Part shown: piece by piece, positions 19,379 to 29,425 of the stretch | Numbering within the stretch: the first letter of the stretch is position 1 | Layout: every line of letters starts with the position of its first letter | From: a virus | Virus record (IMG/VR): IMGVR_UViG_3300009103_000121 | Location: 1-29,425 of that record | Direction: 5' to 3' (one strand) | Length of the DNA stretch: 29,425 bases | The notes under the pieces: model-generated | Told to the model about the DNA's origin: nothing | What the model saw: the letters and a program-made list of their open reading frames with translations, nothing else | Databases searched by the model: none | Program-made: the position numbers and the translations under genes

Positions 19379-19414
19379 TAAAATGGCAGAAAGAAATAGA
19401 GTTTTATATCAATC
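19379..19414 (+). repeat. 36-nt exact repeat at start of tube gene 1
   Basis: From the four bases before ATG 19383 through codon 10 the sequence is identical to 20626-20661. It marks the tandem duplication of the two tube genes and keeps the initiation region the same in both. Confidence 0.9.
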
Positions 19415-20612
19415 TGAAGCATTGTGGGTCGGCCCAATAGCGGGTGGCGCACAGGGAGTACACCCCGAGTTGCACAGAATACAAGATATCAGTCACGATA
19501 TGGATATCACCCGTACTGATGTTTTTGAGTTTGGTAGATTGGCCGCGTTGACTCGCGAGATCATCGAACCACCTACAGTTAGCCTGGATTTTACTTATCT
19601 CCTGGCAGATGGCTCCAACGAAGCAAATATGGGCCTTGAAGTTTGTGATGGAGACGCCGCTGGCGGATCCACCCATTGGATCAACGGAAGTTTTCCTATG
19701 GCCGCAAGTGGAATCATCGCTGACACAGATAAGCAGGAAAAGAATTACTATGTAGTTACCGCTCCAGAATTTAAAGACCTCAATGATGACAAGGACGTCA
19801 GCGTAGCAGACGACACTCGTTCGGTTGTTGGATTCGGTAACGCTGCAATCTCAAATTACTCAGTTAATGCTGCGGTTGGGGATTTTGCACGCGCTAGCAT
19901 AAGCGCCGAAGCTTACAACTTAAACTTCCAATCGGGACTAGCGTCGTCCGCTGGTTATCTGCGCGGTGAAGTTCCTAGTATTAATAAGGAAACCAATAAG
20001 GCATATGATGGGCATTTTAACCTGTCGGAGCCAACTACTGGTGACCTTTCTGTGTTTGCTCTGCGCCCAGGCGATATTAGCCTGAAGTTCGGTGCAACCG
20101 ACGGAAGCAGAGATCAAACGTTACAGGTTGGTGGGGCTGTATTGCCGAATACCGATCCTGATGACACAACCGAGGACCTAAGTGATGGCTTGACTCCCAT
20201 GCATATTCAAAGCTTTAGCATTGAGATGCCTGTTACTCGTACGCCGCTTAATCGCTTGGGCTCAACCTTCCCTTACTACAGGGCTGTTGATTTCCCTCTG
20301 GATGTCACATTAAATGTTAGCGCATTTCTTGCTGATGTTAGTACTGGTAATTTAGTGGACCTTATGTGTAACGCTCAGGACAAGCGCCAAATTGATATTA
20401 TTTTGGACTTCCCTTGTAGTCATTCTCTTAATGACAGCTATGGTGCTAACATGGCCTATCGTTTAAAAGGGGCAGTATTGCAGAGCCAAAACTTTGCATC
20501 AACCATCGGAGATAACAAGACTGTTGACTTGACATTTACCGCTCAAATGGGAGGATCTACAGATACCTCTAACGGGCTGTTCATCTCGGGCTATCAGAAT
20601 GACGTTTCTTAA
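19383..20612 (+). CDS. Tail tube protein, paralogue 1 (409 aa, two tube domains)
   Basis: Predicted main building block of the tail tube. It has two similar halves: residues 31-80 start HRIQDISHDMDITRTDVFEF and residues 274-325 start HIQSFSIEMPVTRTPLNRLG. Each half has Ile-Gln, Ser, an acidic-Met pair, Thr-Arg-Thr and Gly, then a strand pair ending LLADGS or FLADVS. Such double-domain proteins (as in siphophage T5) can form trimers that mimic the usual hexameric ring. It is closely related to the following gene and more distantly to the two after that. Gene order (after neck, before chaperones and tape measure) agrees. Confidence 0.75.
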   Translation: MAERNRVLYQSEALWVGPIAGGAQGVHPELHRIQDISHDMDITRTDVFEFGRLAALTREIIEPPTVSLDFTYLLADGSNEANMGLEVCDGDAAGGSTHWINGSFPMAASGIIADTDKQEKNYYVVTAPEFKDLNDDKDVSVADDTRSVVGFGNAAISNYSVNAAVGDFARASISAEAYNLNFQSGLASSAGYLRGEVPSINKETNKAYDGHFNLSEPTTGDLSVFALRPGDISLKFGATDGSRDQTLQVGGAVLPNTDPDDTTEDLSDGLTPMHIQSFSIEMPVTRTPLNRLGSTFPYYRAVDFPLDVTLNVSAFLADVSTGNLVDLMCNAQDKRQIDIILDFPCSHSLNDSYGANMAYRLKGAVLQSQNFASTIGDNKTVDLTFTAQMGGSTDTSNGLFISGYQNDVS

Positions 20613-20625
20613 TATAGGAAGAAAA

Positions 20626-20661
20626 TAAAATGGCAGAAAGAAATAGAGTTTTATATCAATC
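20626..20661 (+). repeat. 36-nt exact repeat at start of tube gene 2
   Basis: Identical to 19379-19414. Here an AGGAAG Shine-Dalgarno 9 nt before the ATG precedes the repeat, whereas copy 1 lacks one, so the two genes may be translated at different rates. Confidence 0.9.
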
Positions 20662-21889
20662 GGAGTATGTGTACGTTGGTGGCCCAACGGGCTGGGGAGG
20701 CGGAACAGCCAACCAGATCCAACCTCTTCATAGAATCCAGGAGTTTAGTCATGGAATGGAAATCAATCGAACTGATGTTTTTGAGTTTGGTAGATTAGCA
20801 GCCCTGACTCGGGAGATCATCGATCCCCCTACAGTAACCGCCGACATGACATATTTGTTGGCTGACGGCTGGAATGAATCAGGAATTGGTTTTACCGTCT
20901 GCGGAGCAGGCGGCGTGGGCGACCAAAACGGCCGTTCATGGATGGCGGGAGATTTTCCTCCAGCTATATCAGGAATCCTTCAGGATGACGACGGAAATGA
21001 TGTTAGTGAAAAGAATTATTACTTGCTAACTTCCCCCGAATTCACAGACGCAGATGATGATGCGGGTGCAGCTGTAGCGGATATGACCCGTTCAGTTGTA
21101 GGCATCGGCAACGCCGCTGTTACGAATTATACAGTTAACGCTGCAGTGGGAGATTTTGCAAGTGCAAGCGTTTCGCTGGAAGCGTATAACGTTAACTTCA
21201 CATCGGGTCGTGCCGTAGGTGCCGCTGGTTACGTGGTTGAGGGAGAATCTCCTGATGTCAACAAGACTACGGCAGCTGCTGGAGGAAATCAGTATATACT
21301 TCCTGATCCTTCTACTGGTAATCTGAGCGTATTTGCTCTGCGTCCTGGGGACATCGAGATGGTTTTTGTATCAGGTTCGGATGGACTCCCTGTAGACTTG
21401 CAGGTTGGGGGCGCTGTATTGCCCACGCTGGATCCAGATTCGGCTACAGAACCCGCTCCAGATACCCCAATGCATATTCAAAGCTTTAGTATCGAAGCTC
21501 CTTTAGCTCGTACTCCTTTGAATAGAATTGGAAGTGTTTACCCTTACCACAGAGCGGTAGACTTCCCTCAAGACATTACCGTAAATGTTAGTGCATTCTT
21601 GGCGGACGTAACCACTGGTAATCTGGTAGATCTAATGTGTAACTCGAGCCAAACTCGAACAATTGATGTTCGTTGTAGGTTCCCGTGTGATTCTCATGAC
21701 AGAGGAGACATTCAGCAAGCAGGAAGCAGATACGACTTAATCTATCGTCTCAAAAATTGTCGCCTGCAAAGTCAAAACTTCGCGTCCACCATTGGTGACA
21801 ATAAATCCGTTGATTTGTCGTTTGTCGCTCAGTATGGCGGAGTCAGTGATACTGACAACGGTCTGTTTATCTCTGGTGTGATTGATTAA
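20630..21889 (+). CDS. Tail tube protein, paralogue 2 (419 aa, two tube domains)
   Basis: Close relative of the previous gene: same first twelve residues (MAERNRVLYQSE), the same VFEFGRLAALTREII core (about 50-64) and the same C-terminal FASTIGDNKSVDLSF-type segment. Internal repeat: residues 34-83 (HRIQEFSHGMEINRTDVFEF) and 282-333 (HIQSFSIEAPLARTPLNRIG). It differs mainly in insertions in surface loops (GGPTGWGGGTANQ near residues 17-29). Possibly both copies build one mixed tube, or one is a minor variant. A better ribosome-binding site and the terminator just downstream suggest strong expression. Confidence 0.75.
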   Translation: MAERNRVLYQSEYVYVGGPTGWGGGTANQIQPLHRIQEFSHGMEINRTDVFEFGRLAALTREIIDPPTVTADMTYLLADGWNESGIGFTVCGAGGVGDQNGRSWMAGDFPPAISGILQDDDGNDVSEKNYYLLTSPEFTDADDDAGAAVADMTRSVVGIGNAAVTNYTVNAAVGDFASASVSLEAYNVNFTSGRAVGAAGYVVEGESPDVNKTTAAAGGNQYILPDPSTGNLSVFALRPGDIEMVFVSGSDGLPVDLQVGGAVLPTLDPDSATEPAPDTPMHIQSFSIEAPLARTPLNRIGSVYPYHRAVDFPQDITVNVSAFLADVTTGNLVDLMCNSSQTRTIDVRCRFPCDSHDRGDIQQAGSRYDLIYRLKNCRLQSQNFASTIGDNKSVDLSFVAQYGGVSDTDNGLFISGVID

Positions 21890-24005: not shown

Positions 24006-24878
24006 ATGGCTAAAAGGGAATTATATAGTTTTACGGTAGATCTGGAACAGGAGGTTGAAAAGACTGTTGAGGTCGAAAAGGAAGTGGAGGTCGAAAAGGA
24101 AGTCGAAGTTGAAAAGCGGAGAAAAAACAAGAAGACCAATAAGTTTGAAAAGTACACAACCACGCAGTTGCGTAAGGTTAAGGAAAAGCAAATAGTAAAA
24201 GAATTACGCACAGAGATAGAGACTACTCCAGTTCGGATTATCCTTCGCAAGCCAAGCAGGTCTCAGCTCGAGGATGGAGATATGTTTTATAGCATCTGGC
24301 TTAATAAGTTTATTAAGATGGGGCTTCTGACTAGATCGATGCTTGCTAAGCAGCATTTGGATTTAGGCGGTACGTTAAGCGAAGACGAGAAACAAAGATA
24401 CGCCCAGTTATATGTCAAGCTATATGAGCAGCAAACCATTGTGCAGAGACTAGGAATCATCGCAGACGATAAAATGACCGTTGATCAAAAAGATAGATTA
24501 GATCGCGCCATTGCAGAGCTGGGAGTAATTAGAAAAGAGCTGACTGATTTTGAAACTGTGCAAGCTGCCATGTTTGAGCATACAGCAGATATTAAGGCCA
24601 GAAACAAGACAATTACTTGGTATTTGTTGCACCTGGCCCACTATCAGGTAGGCGAGTCGGATGACGCGGATATACTTCCAATGTTCGAGGGAGCAGACTT
24701 TGATGAAAAATATTCTTCGTATCAAAATAGAGACGAGGAAGAGGATGAGATTTATTTAAAAAGCATTGACCGACTCAGTTCTATCGCAACTATCTGGTAT
24801 ATGAGCGGAGTTCAGCAACAGGAAGATTTCGACAAGCTATTAGAGGAGGTTCAAGAAGAAACCTTACTCGATGTCTGA
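24006..24878 (+). CDS. Tail-assembly-chaperone candidate with VEKEVE repeats (290 aa)
   Basis: Near the N-terminus (residues 21-37) is a low-complexity VEVEKEVEVEKEVEVEK stretch encoded by an 18-bp repeat, followed by a Lys/Arg-rich patch. The central part (about 95-215) is helical (MFYSIWLNKFIKMGLLTRSM). The end is very acidic (RDEEEDEI, LEEVQEETLLDV). It lies one gene before the tape measure's partner gene and overlaps that gene by 8 nt, in the position occupied by gpG-type chaperones elsewhere. No slippery heptamer is visible at the overlap, so a frameshift fusion is not supported. Confidence 0.45.
   Translation: MAKRELYSFTVDLEQEVEKTVEVEKEVEVEKEVEVEKRRKNKKTNKFEKYTTTQLRKVKEKQIVKELRTEIETTPVRIILRKPSRSQLEDGDMFYSIWLNKFIKMGLLTRSMLAKQHLDLGGTLSEDEKQRYAQLYVKLYEQQTIVQRLGIIADDKMTVDQKDRLDRAIAELGVIRKELTDFETVQAAMFEHTADIKARNKTITWYLLHLAHYQVGESDDADILPMFEGADFDEKYSSYQNRDEEEDEIYLKSIDRLSSIATIWYMSGVQQQEDFDKLLEEVQEETLLDV
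24066..24116 (+). repeat. 18-bp coding tandem repeat (2.8 units)
   Basis: GTTGAGGTCGAAAAGGAA, GTGGAGGTCGAAAAGGAA and a partial, diverged third unit (GTCGAAGTTGAAAAG) encode VEVEKE units. Copy number could vary by slippage between related phages. Confidence 0.8.
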
Positions 24879-25914
24879 GGAAGAAACACAAGACGAAGGC
24901 TTTTTAGTAAAAAAAAAGACTGACGAAGATTTACTTCGCAGGGTTTTTTTACATGTTTCCAAGGGTTATTCTATTGGCTCTTATGAAGGGAAAAAAGTAT
25001 ACATTAAGCATACTACCGCCCTGGATCAAGACGTACTAGATGATCTAAAGCAAAAGCGAATAAAATACCTAGAGGATAAGGGCATTCCTTCTGAAAAGGA
25101 GCGGATGCAGCAGCTAAACGAAGAAGGAGTCTGGACTTCAAAAGATGAGGAATCCATCGCTCAACTGGAGTCTTTTTTGAAAAACCTCGTAGGTACAAAG
25201 AATACCCTTTTATTGCCGTCACAAGTGGGAGCTATGGAAACCAAGATCAAACAAACGGAAAGCGAGATATTTTCCAAGAAGCAAGACAGGGCGGCTTTAT
25301 TAACTGATACAAAAGAGGCGTACGCAGATAGATATATTAGTGACGAAACTCTATACTTTGCTTTTTATAAAGACCTGCAGCTCACTACCCCATTTTTTGA
25401 GCGTGAAGTTTTTGATGATATAGAGCGGGTGGATATGTATGGTTTGGTGCAAGTTTATAATGAATGCTTTAAGGATTTGTCTATACTTAACATTAAGAAG
25501 TGTGCTCTTAGCAATATGTTCACTAGTTATTATCAGCTCTGCGAGCAAGAGCCTTATAGATTGTTTGATCGTAAGCCGTTAGAGCTAAGTTATTATCAGC
25601 TTAATTTACTTAGTTACGGCAGGGTATTTAAATCTATATTGAAAAATATTCCTGACATTCCTGATGAAATCCGCGACGATGCGGAGAAATTGTTGGAGTT
25701 TGCAGAGACTGGGCACGAGAAGCAAGAAAAGATTAAAGAACTTCAAGGAAAGGGGAAAAATCTTGGATCTAAAAAGACCGCTCAATCTATTGTCGGCGCA
25801 ACCAAGGAGGACTTGGATAAAATGGGGTATAATCAAGAAAACGTCATTACTCCCATGGAGATGATGAGAAGAGCAGGAAAGACTTCTTTATCGTTGCTGA
25901 ACAATGATTTATAA
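24871..25914 (+). CDS. Second tail-assembly-chaperone candidate (347 aa)
   Basis: ATG 24871 overlaps the previous gene by 8 nt. The product begins MSEEETQDEGFLVKKKTDED, has a small strand region (YSIGSYEGKKVYIKHTT, about 33-49), then long charged helices (IKQTESEIFSKKQDRAALLT, about 127-146) and an all-helical part (about 150-280) with Cys-containing YQLCEQEPYRLFDRK. It lies directly before the tape measure. It may be the larger chaperone partner that coats the tape measure, comparable in place, not in sequence, to lambda gpGT. A run of nine A at 24909-24917 is a possible transcriptional slippage site. Confidence 0.45.
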   Translation: MSEEETQDEGFLVKKKTDEDLLRRVFLHVSKGYSIGSYEGKKVYIKHTTALDQDVLDDLKQKRIKYLEDKGIPSEKERMQQLNEEGVWTSKDEESIAQLESFLKNLVGTKNTLLLPSQVGAMETKIKQTESEIFSKKQDRAALLTDTKEAYADRYISDETLYFAFYKDLQLTTPFFEREVFDDIERVDMYGLVQVYNECFKDLSILNIKKCALSNMFTSYYQLCEQEPYRLFDRKPLELSYYQLNLLSYGRVFKSILKNIPDIPDEIRDDAEKLLEFAETGHEKQEKIKELQGKGKNLGSKKTAQSIVGATKEDLDKMGYNQENVITPMEMMRRAGKTSLSLLNNDL

Positions 25915-25971: not shown

Positions 25972-28900
25972 ATGGCGGATATTTCAGTAAGAGTAAAAGC
26001 TGTAGGATTACAGCAAAGCATTACGCAGCAGGCTCAAGCAGCGCAGCGTACGGTAAGCCGTTTGAATTTAACCCCACGAATGGACGCCAAGGGACTGCAA
26101 CAACCCTTGGGAAGAATCACGGGAAACCTTAGTGAGTTTAATAAATCTCTTGACGCTTCTACCGCTCGTGTATTTGCCTTTGGAGCTACAGTATCAGTTA
26201 TTAATGGTATTGCTGATGCATTTAAGGGAGTTGTTTCTGCCGTAATAGAAGTAGAGCGAGCTCTAGAAAATATTAATGTAGTCATGGGGTTGACCACTGC
26301 TCAACTAGCCGATTACTCCGATGCTCTTTTTGATGTTGCGAAAAATACCAGTCAAACCTTTCAAACTGTAGCTACAGCCGCCACGGAATTTGCGAGGCAG
26401 GGCTTAAGCGCTGAAGAAACACTACAAAGAGTTAATGACGCCCTTATACTTACTCGTTTATCGGGATTGGGTGCAGAGCAGTCGGTTGCTTCGCTCACGG
26501 CGGTAGTTAATGGCTTTGCTCGGGAGAGCCTCAATACAACAGAAATCGTTAATAGACTAGCTAATGTTGACGCGAGTTTTGCGGTTAGCTCTAAAGATTT
26601 GGCAGACGCCTTGGCTCGAGCGGGAGCGACCGCACAGTCTGCGGGCGTAAACTTTAATGAACTTTTGGCCGTTGTAACATCAGTGCAGCAGCAGACCGCT
26701 CGTGGCGGGTCTGTTATTGGCAATGCTTTTAAAAGTATATTTACTCGTATACAGAGAGCAAAAGTACGAGAAACACTAGAGGGTGTTGGCGTTGCTACTA
26801 CAGATGCTTTCGGAAACTTTAGATCAGCAATTGCCATCTTGAAGGATTACGCTTCTGTTTATGGCACGCTTTCAGACGCGCAAAAAGCCTATACCGCTGA
26901 ACAAATCGCAGGAGTCTTCCAGGTTAATAATTTAAAAGCTTTAATTAATGATTTGAGTGGTGATTTTTCTATTTACGAACAAGCTTTAGGCACCGCAGCT
27001 GCCACCACCGACGAAGCCACTCGCAGAAACGAGCAATTAAATCAAACTTTTGCGGCATTGGGCGCCCAAGCTGGAGAGAGCATTCGGCAGTTGGCGGATT
27101 CTTTTGGAGAACTTACGCTTGAGCCCGCCATGGAAAGAGTACTCGGCATGGTTCAGACAATCGTGGACGCCTTGAGCGGAATGCTGGGAGAGAAAGATGG
27201 AGATAATTTAATGGGCAAATTCTTTAAGGGAATGGGAGCTTTTATTTCTGGCCCTGGCCTCGCTTTGATTTCTGCTGCATTTCTTAAATTGTTTATGTTA
27301 GTGGGAAAGCATGCGACTGCCGCTATCAGGGAGATGTTTAAAATTTCCTCCGAAGCCCAGCGACAAAAAGGGCTACAAGAAGCGATCTTACAGATACTAA
27401 TTAAAGATGAGCAGGCTTATACAAAAATCTTAGCCGCCAGCGGTAACCAAAATAAACAAGCAAAAATTTTAGTAGGCATAATAAAGCAGGCCAATGCGGA
27501 ATACGCAAAACAACAAGCTCTTCTTTCTAATTTGTCTAAATCAGGAGCCATGAAGGGGTTTGGCGTCGGGAAGAGTGGATACATACAGCCTATAAGCCGC
27601 AAGGCAGAAGGGCATACGCCGACTATGGCTGGAGGAGGCATGCCCGAAGTACAGGCTGCAGAAGATGCAGGTTATGCCTCTCCCGTAAAGCCACAACAGG
27701 TTAGGCAGATGAATGTCCCCAATTTGGGTAAGGTAATGTACAACACTCAGGAGAAAATCGTTAATGTTCCTAATTTGGCGCAACCATTTATTGTCCCACC
27801 TGCTTCTTCTAAGGCGTACCCTAATTATGCAAGCCAAGTTAAGGAGCAGTTTGGAGAGCCAATGGCCAAGAATGTTTTAGGTAGAGCGTTTACTCCAAAA
27901 CAAAGAGCTTTTGCTGAGGGGTTTAGCCCCATTAAAAAGGGTTCGTTAATGCTTGAAAAAGAATACGCAAGCAATGCTTCGGGTTTGGTTCCTAATTTCA
28001 TAGTTAAGCCCGCGCAGTTACAGCAGGAACTTATTAAACAAGGTTCATTAAGAAAAGGGGATATCCTGGATAATAAAAAAACTTATGAATATAAGTTTTC
28101 AGATGGAACTAGCGTACTCGGAAAGCCTGGAGAGCTTAGGGGTGCAGTTACCATGAATAATGGTAAGCTTGTTAAAAATGAAAACTCTTTATTTTTTAAA
28201 GATCGCTCAATAAATCCCGCTTCTAGGAAGAGTCTAGATCAAAGCTCTCGGGTTTCGATGCTGTTACCTGAAGCTACAGCAGGAGATGCAGCGACTCGTG
28301 TGGCGACACAAATTTCAGGGGGCACCTTAACCGAAACCCTAGGTAAACCAGGCGCACTGACAGAGATAGTGGGGCCTGGCACAATAAAAAAATTAGGAGG
28401 AGAGCAGTCTGCAAAAACCAAATTACAAACCGCATTCTCCAATGATGTTTTCGATGTTAAGTTTTCTAAGTCAGGAGTGCAAGATTTAGAAAACCAAACT
28501 TCACTGCGAGAAAAAATAGATAGCGATTTATCTTCAAAGGTCACGCAGGTTTTGACTGGAAACGCCAAACAACTTATTAGCAAGTCAAATTTAAAAAATG
28601 TACCAATTAATCAGGCAGAAGTCAAGGGCCAAGCCGAAAAATTAGTAGGCGCGAATTCTAAGATGACTGGCACAATGTTTGAGGATATTGTTACTATTGC
28701 CGTAGGCAAATCAAATGAATTCTCTAGTCAAGATCATTATAGAAATTGGGACTTCCAAGGAGTTGGTGCTTTAAACAATTTATTCGATAAGCGAGTTAAT
28801 GAGTTTGCTGATACAAAACGTTCTGATCTTCCTCACGCCCGCGCTTCAATGGCAAAAAAAATATTATTTGGCACTCCATTAGGAAAGCAAACCCTGAAAA

Positions 28901-29425
28901 GCGCAGCCCAACAGGCGCTCCCAACGCAGCGGGCAGCTAAGGCTAAGACTAGGGCGTCGGGCTTGGTTCCTAATTTAGGCCGACTAGATGGTCAGCAAGA
29001 GTTCTTTCGTAATGCAGGAAAAAAGATGGGAGGACGGAACCCTAGAGCTAAGATTTTTGATGTAGATGATACATTAATGGATACTTCTGTAGCTATGAAA
29101 AAGATGGGTATTAAGCCTGGAGATCAGAGAATCTATGGAGACAAAAATGTTTCACGAGACATCGCTAGACAGGCAAAGCCTACGCTTTTGGGAGAAAAAG
29201 TAAAAGCTCTAAAAAATAAAGATAATGTTTTTCTCTTAACTGACGCTGGTCCTGCGCGCAATCAAGTTCTTTCGGAAAAATTTGATATACCCCTAAAGAA
29301 AATAATTGCTTTACGGGATCCCGCGCAAATCTCAAAGTTTGGTTTGGATTCGGTAGTCCCCTCTGCCCAAGGTCTTCGTAGGCAGAAAAAAGACCCTTCT
29401 TATAAACTAGAAAAAGGTTCGCGGG
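25972..29425 (+). CDS. Tail tape-measure protein with embedded enzyme-like domains (3' end outside window)
   Basis: The frame is open from ATG 25972 to the window end (1151 residues so far, no stop). Residues about 70-340 are a TP901-type tape-measure core (LANVDASFAVSSKDLADALA, FNELLAVVTSVQQQTARGGS). A Gly-rich hydrophobic segment lies at about 416-443 (FISGPGLALISAAFLKLFML), as expected for a tape measure that enters the host membrane. From about 580 on come four VPN(L/F) motifs (581-585, 598-602, 672-676, 998-1002). Between the third and fourth is a PD-(D/E)XK-like region (E904, D927, D947-x-K949), and after the fourth a HAD-like start (FDVDDTLMD, D1030/D1032; LLTDA, T1090). Core function is sure; the enzyme parts are inferred by motif. 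Confidence 0.9.
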   Translation, partial: MADISVRVKAVGLQQSITQQAQAAQRTVSRLNLTPRMDAKGLQQPLGRITGNLSEFNKSLDASTARVFAFGATVSVINGIADAFKGVVSAVIEVERALENINVVMGLTTAQLADYSDALFDVAKNTSQTFQTVATAATEFARQGLSAEETLQRVNDALILTRLSGLGAEQSVASLTAVVNGFARESLNTTEIVNRLANVDASFAVSSKDLADALARAGATAQSAGVNFNELLAVVTSVQQQTARGGSVIGNAFKSIFTRIQRAKVRETLEGVGVATTDAFGNFRSAIAILKDYASVYGTLSDAQKAYTAEQIAGVFQVNNLKALINDLSGDFSIYEQALGTAAATTDEATRRNEQLNQTFAALGAQAGESIRQLADSFGELTLEPAMERVLGMVQTIVDALSGMLGEKDGDNLMGKFFKGMGAFISGPGLALISAAFLKLFMLVGKHATAAIREMFKISSEAQRQKGLQEAILQILIKDEQAYTKILAASGNQNKQAKILVGIIKQANAEYAKQQALLSNLSKSGAMKGFGVGKSGYIQPISRKAEGHTPTMAGGGMPEVQAAEDAGYASPVKPQQVRQMNVPNLGKVMYNTQEKIVNVPNLAQPFIVPPASSKAYPNYASQVKEQFGEPMAKNVLGRAFTPKQRAFAEGFSPIKKGSLMLEKEYASNASGLVPNFIVKPAQLQQELIKQGSLRKGDILDNKKTYEYKFSDGTSVLGKPGELRGAVTMNNGKLVKNENSLFFKDRSINPASRKSLDQSSRVSMLLPEATAGDAATRVATQISGGTLTETLGKPGALTEIVGPGTIKKLGGEQSAKTKLQTAFSNDVFDVKFSKSGVQDLENQTSLREKIDSDLSSKVTQVLTGNAKQLISKSNLKNVPINQAEVKGQAEKLVGANSKMTGTMFEDIVTIAVGKSNEFSSQDHYRNWDFQGVGALNNLFDKRVNEFADTKRSDLPHARASMAKKILFGTPLGKQTLKSAAQQALPTQRAAKAKTRASGLVPNLGRLDGQQEFFRNAGKKMGGRNPRAKIFDVDDTLMDTSVAMKKMGIKPGDQRIYGDKNVSRDIARQAKPTLLGEKVKALKNKDNVFLLTDAGPARNQVLSEKFDIPLKKIIALRDPAQISKFGLDSVVPSAQGLRRQKKDPSYKLEKGSR
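28654..28866 (+). other. PD-(D/E)XK-like region within tape measure
   Basis: Residues about 895-965: GTMFEDIVTIAVG (E904), RNWDFQGVG (D927), EFADTKRSD (D947-T-K949), then a helix SMAKKILFG. A helix Glu, an Asp, and D-x-K about 20 residues later is the metal-site layout of the PD-(D/E)XK nuclease fold. Whether the domain is active cannot be judged from sequence alone. Confidence 0.45.
29035..29425 (+). other. HAD-phosphatase-like domain within tape measure (cut by window end)
   Basis: Residues from about 1022: motif I IFDVDDTLMDTS (D1030, D1032, T1034) and motif II VFLLTDAGPARNQVLSEKF (T1090). A later Lys-rich segment (LRRQKKDPSYKLEKG) is where motif III Lys would fall; motif IV would lie beyond the window. 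The pattern recalls DNA/RNA 3'-phosphatase and other small HAD enzymes; the substrate is unknown. Confidence 0.65.

Follow-up and report, generated by a model that had tools for sequence, protein, structure and literature searches.

Exchangeable modules of tape-measure proteins from a group of uncultured phages are bordered by a conserved short linear motif

Tape-measure proteins of phages are usually treated as rulers of the tail with an occasional wall-cutting domain. In another kind of system, the polymorphic toxins, a short conserved motif (VENN in CdiA) marks the start of a variable cargo domain. Wall-cutting domains embedded in tape measures are exemplified by Mt3 of mycobacteriophage TM4 (PMC1796659) and by pb2 of phage T5 (PMC10038345). 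The T5 tape measure is cleaved between its hydrophobic stretch and its enzyme domain, and the lambda tape measure is cleaved as well (PMC10038345); deletion of the enzyme motif in TM4 results in a tail ~20 nm shorter, as expected if the motif counts toward length (PMC1796659). The concept nearest to the proteins described below is that of the polyvalent proteins of phages and conjugative elements, which join many unrelated enzymatic domains and are thought to act early, and some of which contain zincin-like peptidases proposed to release the domains (Iyer et al. 2017, PMC5512222).

The tape measures studied here resemble polyvalent proteins in having many apparently unrelated domains in one large polypeptide, but the carrier is a tape measure and a dedicated motif stands at the borders, whereas PMC5512222 describes neither tape measures nor linkers. 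With Mt3 and pb2 they share the presence of an enzyme domain within a tape measure; while tape measures of the TM4 and T5 type usually hold one muralytic domain, up to about 10 modules are found here, together with non-wall enzymes and a repeated border motif. Polymorphic toxins, to which the likeness is one of description only, have a single C-terminal toxin domain, in contrast to the many internal borders of a virion protein seen here. Among isolates, the tape measures of SPbeta-, Slash- and FADO-type Bacillus phages (PF10145) have a homologous core (23–30% identity), but only the core matches; a hand-written consensus of the motif-flanked short element found nothing significant in isolate phages. 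GFIPNF appeared in no paper of the open literature searched, a scope outside which most subscription papers fall, and the titles and abstracts held nothing on point about tape measures that contain a tRNA nucleotidyltransferase. We found no prior description of the motif in the literature searched (titles and abstracts, mostly non-subscription).

The window analysed, a linear virus record of 29,425 bases taken as a whole, contains an open reading frame at 25972–29425 (+) that is interrupted by the contig end, leaving 1151 aa visible and an open 3′ end. Its product matches the tape-measure profile PF10145 (7.2e-28) and PHROG tape-measure families (2.7e-52). The conserved core (approximately aa 48–428; 26113–27255, +), with PF10145 at aa 123–314, shows 34–43% identity to 28 relatives in an alignment. 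In eight relatives homologous genes stand in the same order, the tape measure being directly preceded by tail genes and a chaperone-like pair. The window protein, though truncated, belongs to a motif-bearing tape-measure group; the phages that carry the motif form a large, uncultured group.

The upstream pair consists of two ORFs (290 and 347 aa; 24006–25914, +) in tail-chaperone position, which are conserved in relatives (34–69% and 29–41%) and matched no family. The first of them (24006–24878) starts with a repeated VEKEVEVEKEVEVEK stretch and is among the window genes best conserved with relatives (69% with L078). Further upstream in the tail region, 19383–20612 and 20630–21889 are tandem paralogues, both starting MAERNRVLYQSE, at a site where the compared relatives appear to have a single homologue. 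On the other side of the tape measure, the next gene of two relatives (L002, 15422–18955; L003, 11545–15006) has KYGYEQ tandem repeats in copy numbers that differ between these otherwise very similar phages.

A preliminary description of the window protein had listed NVPNLGK (aa 581–587), NVPNLAQ (aa 598–604), ASGLVPNFI (aa 669–677; 27976–28002, +) and ASGLVPNLG (aa 995–1003; 28954–28980, +) as copies of one repeated motif, and had pointed to nearly the same codons in the last two. Residues and coordinates were confirmed for all four strings, and 21/23 nt are common to the two ASGLVPN copies. These two are genuine copies; the two NVPNL strings are not. When the first 660 aa of the window protein were aligned with its 28 relatives (29 proteins), both NVPNL strings (aa 581–604; 27712–27783, +) fell on a separate conserved block, MNIPG.G.V.YN.AE.VK.FPG..QPAIMPP, which in the relatives follows the first true motif copy and precedes the second. 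The true first copy of the window protein had been overlooked: it lies upstream of the NVPNL strings, aligned to KSxGFIPNF of relatives, and has decayed to KAEGHTPTM (aa 544–552; 27601–27627, +).

The same description had proposed that the motif be counted in related phages and compared with domain borders. Homologues were found to hold many more copies. From 478 distinct contexts we obtained the consensus (A/S)xG[FY][IV]PN[FY][AS], in which P and N are fixed by the search pattern, G is present in 99% and the flanks are near background. A total of 488 copies was counted in 116 related tape-measure proteins versus 0.1 expected from composition-preserving shuffles, which rules out a chance origin of the motif. 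None of 20,000 shuffles of the window protein had two matches to G[FYLM][IV]PN[FYLM]. One sample comprised 42 viral stretches matched by a DNA pattern for AGF(I/V)PNFA; most of them had several copies within one large tape-measure gene, and four of the 42 contigs were out-of-frame chance matches. In a second sample, for which proteins were picked by the tape-measure core and not by the motif, 79 of the 81 proteins with a length of 900 aa or more had at least two copies. Throughout whole viral contigs the motif was limited to the tape-measure gene, with up to 11 copies each, and among the matches listed the copies in whole viral records formed one cluster. A control with the reversed pattern gave hardly any matches: a single one among 43 records, and in the second search the viral records had none.

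The first copy has a fixed place in the protein (median aa 541, IQR 538–545). Codons of the motif differ widely among copies and phages; across phages, the core of the peptide hardly varies. Copies agree in their codons little more than expected (0.53 vs 0.48; 0.56 vs 0.41 at the I/V position), so selection probably does not act chiefly on the DNA. At the protein level, variant residues match more often within one protein than between proteins, beyond what composition accounts for (z of 7.1 for I/V and 4.2 for F/Y); random I/V residues of the same proteins gave no such agreement.

Motif copies coincide with module borders. Within the modular region, 76–82% of BLAST alignment ends fell within 10 aa of a motif copy, compared to 22–26% of random points; the ends are not statistically independent of one another, yet the contrast is still large. 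The result holds with the motif masked or unmasked, while a control that masked segment midpoints instead of the motif gave 3–8%. Nearly every module border has the same site, as would be the case in a processed polyprotein. A module of ~150 aa is common to two relatives (L074 and L076) in different surroundings and has moved exactly from motif to motif: nucleotide identity is 0.5 before the motif, 0.65–0.87 across the module and 0.44–0.57 around the next copy. Short inter-copy elements of 60–90 aa constitute a separate recurrent group. We conclude that independently evolving, exchangeable modules are bordered by a conserved short linear motif, (A/S)xG[FY][IV]PN[FY]A; the earlier suggestion of a linker at such borders is well supported by the coincidence of copies and borders in relatives. 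As a separate observation, a 212-aa module of L098 (aa 900–1110) and L174 (aa 1154–1363) is 81% identical, other matching parts being ~40% identical; this is apparently a recent exchange that starts at a motif copy and ends without one.

The module between the two genuine copies of the window protein (aa 678–994; 28003–28953, +) belongs to the commonest module family, which is marked by invariant G, E, D, K and K residues (G-E-D-K-K). Some 100 of the proteins have profile matches to this family, mostly right after a motif copy and at differing positions in different proteins. This link required an HMM built without the window, which matches window aa 669–973 at 1.4e-11, starting at the motif copy; single window modules searched against relatives gave no match by phmmer and one weak match by blastp. 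The five residues are invariant over 60 divergent members, E904, D927, K949 and K963 of the window being among them. Their arrangement corresponds to the PD-(D/E)XK nuclease pattern E...D...(D/E)xK, a short pattern that is not proof and makes the family a candidate nuclease only. Fold searches by Foldseek and VIA-align, for which models of the window segment (mean pLDDT 67) and of the L053 module of a relative (mean pLDDT 86) served as queries, gave no match, and neither did a profile search of the module alignment against PDB, so the nuclease reading draws on the residues themselves and the family is left unassigned.

The last segment of the window protein, after aa 1003, probably begins as an HAD-like phosphatase (29047–29424, +) and is ended by the contig end. 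By eye, KIFDVDDTL is seen at aa 1027 and FLLTD at aa 1087; aa 1020–1151 contain HAD motif I (DxDxT) and motif II, and motifs III and IV would fall at or beyond the contig end. No profile matched aa 1020–1151, and a DNA-pattern search of viral contigs for HAD relatives returned none. In a relative, L171, an HAD-like module with the complete HAD residue pattern lies just after a motif copy.

Clearer enzyme signatures are found elsewhere in the relatives. A complete tRNA CCA-adding enzyme, made of a head domain and an HD-like part, fills one inter-motif segment in L171 (aa 1543–2055) and in L169 (aa 1213–1677). It is recognized by PolyA_pol head-domain and tRNA nucleotidyltransferase profiles (PF01743, 4.3e-19 and 3.5e-14; PHROG, 3.7e-67), by the NCBIfam CCA addition/repair model (6.6e-51, under that model's own cut-off) and by PDB matches to CCA-adding enzymes and poly(A) polymerases (to 2.5e-22). 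Such an enzyme might restore tRNAs that host defences have cut. Three modules of L054, each between motif copies, are a GNAT (8.5e-7), a P-loop and a HELFH module. Thus, as judged from profile matches, some modules of relatives are enzymes, namely the CCA-adding enzyme (L171) and GNAT (L054); the proposal that the tape measure carries enzyme modules holds for these and is likely for the HAD-like segment of the window. Since HAD, P-loop and G-E-D-K-K modules are assigned by residue patterns, no single protein has two profile-supported enzymes. Most modules are without a match to any known family, and none of 91 modules matched an LPD or MPTase Pfam family.

AlphaFold2 models of the window segment have low confidence at both motif copies, including ASGLVPNLG. 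For the L053 module, confidence is ~90 or above over most of the body and 44–68 at the two motif ends. Low confidence is not proof of disorder, but the models fit a flexible linker with a recognised core that joins folded modules.

Several results lead us to read the motif as a recognition linker: the excess of copies over shuffles, their frequency in core-picked proteins, their confinement to the tape measure, the border statistics, the L074/L076 transfer, the CCA-adding enzyme filling one segment, the contrast between core and flanks, and the homogeneity of variants. Counted against this reading are the many modules without a known family and the non-independence of alignment ends. A conserved short core in low-confidence linkers, with variants homogenised within a protein, makes a specific partner likely, since a plain linker would not retain such a core. 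A phage-specific partner is the simplest explanation of the homogenised variants, although concerted evolution could also produce them, which counts against docking. We suppose that the phage itself encodes the partner that would bind the linker, and that this is most likely a factor of tail assembly or packaging, by which each module would be treated separately; the two ORFs upstream of the tape measure, whose chaperone role is suggested by their position, are candidates for it. A new module would then work at any insertion point if the flanking tag comes along. Judging from the tape-measure context, the modules may be cargo that travels in the tail and enters the cell together with the tape measure and DNA. 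A docking linker between exchangeable, probably injected, cargo modules is on balance the probable explanation.

Rather unlikely, though with analogies in its favour, is a processing site, as the preliminary description had also considered: a phage or host protease, or Asn self-cleavage, would act at each copy, and the tape measure would be a polyprotein that releases its modules. The copies lie in predicted flexible linkers at module borders, as cleavage sites might, and within-protein homogeneity fits one protease per phage. By analogy, cleavage of the T5 and lambda tape measures (PMC10038345) favours processing over docking. A general maturation protease, however, should have sites in other genes of the same contigs, which are without copies. 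Cleavage of the T5 and lambda proteins and the shortened tail after motif deletion in TM4 leave both docking and cleavage plausible, and we modestly prefer docking as our first choice.

Two further explanations fare much worse. The motif could be the first strand or turn of each module fold, kept for folding and not for recognition; its place just before modules and the fixed position of the first copy would suit this, but modules without detectable similarity have the same core residues, and the models are confident in the module and not at the motif, which makes such a cap highly improbable. It is equally hard to credit a conserved DNA seam that would favour homologous recombination between modules, the peptide being a by-product, because, for all the motif-to-motif movement and the slight surplus of codon identity, that surplus is small and codons vary widely where the peptide core is near-invariant across phages.

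A broader proposal can be offered, tentatively: the tape measure may be a cassette carrier. Any module flanked by G[FY][IV]PN[FY]A would be packed into the tail, reach the cell at the very start of infection and be treated as a unit. The cargo might include enzymes of the tRNA-repair type (CCA-adding enzyme, HAD phosphatase, P-loop) that would undo tRNA-cutting host defences before phage gene expression.

Two tape-measure ORFs, both without a stop codon, far exceed the family median of 2,285 aa, with 8,166 aa (L167 with L177, contig G044) and 10,437 aa (L171 with L178, contig G056); all motif copies of these two lie in the first 3,000–3,700 aa. In lambda, roughly 0.15 nm of tail corresponds to each tape-measure residue. 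At roughly this value a fully extended tape measure of 10,437 aa would give a tail of ~1.5 μm.

The presence of the motif at nearly every module joint suggests that tape measures double as carriers of ready-made enzymes into the infected cell. The whole phage group seems to have turned its ruler into a modular carrier whose parts are joined by a standard coupling. An old question, whether enzyme modules count as tail length, thereby becomes testable. If this reading is true, sequence alone is enough to predict cargo borders from the motif, and with them candidates for early effectors that are injected and for enzymes of counter-defence.
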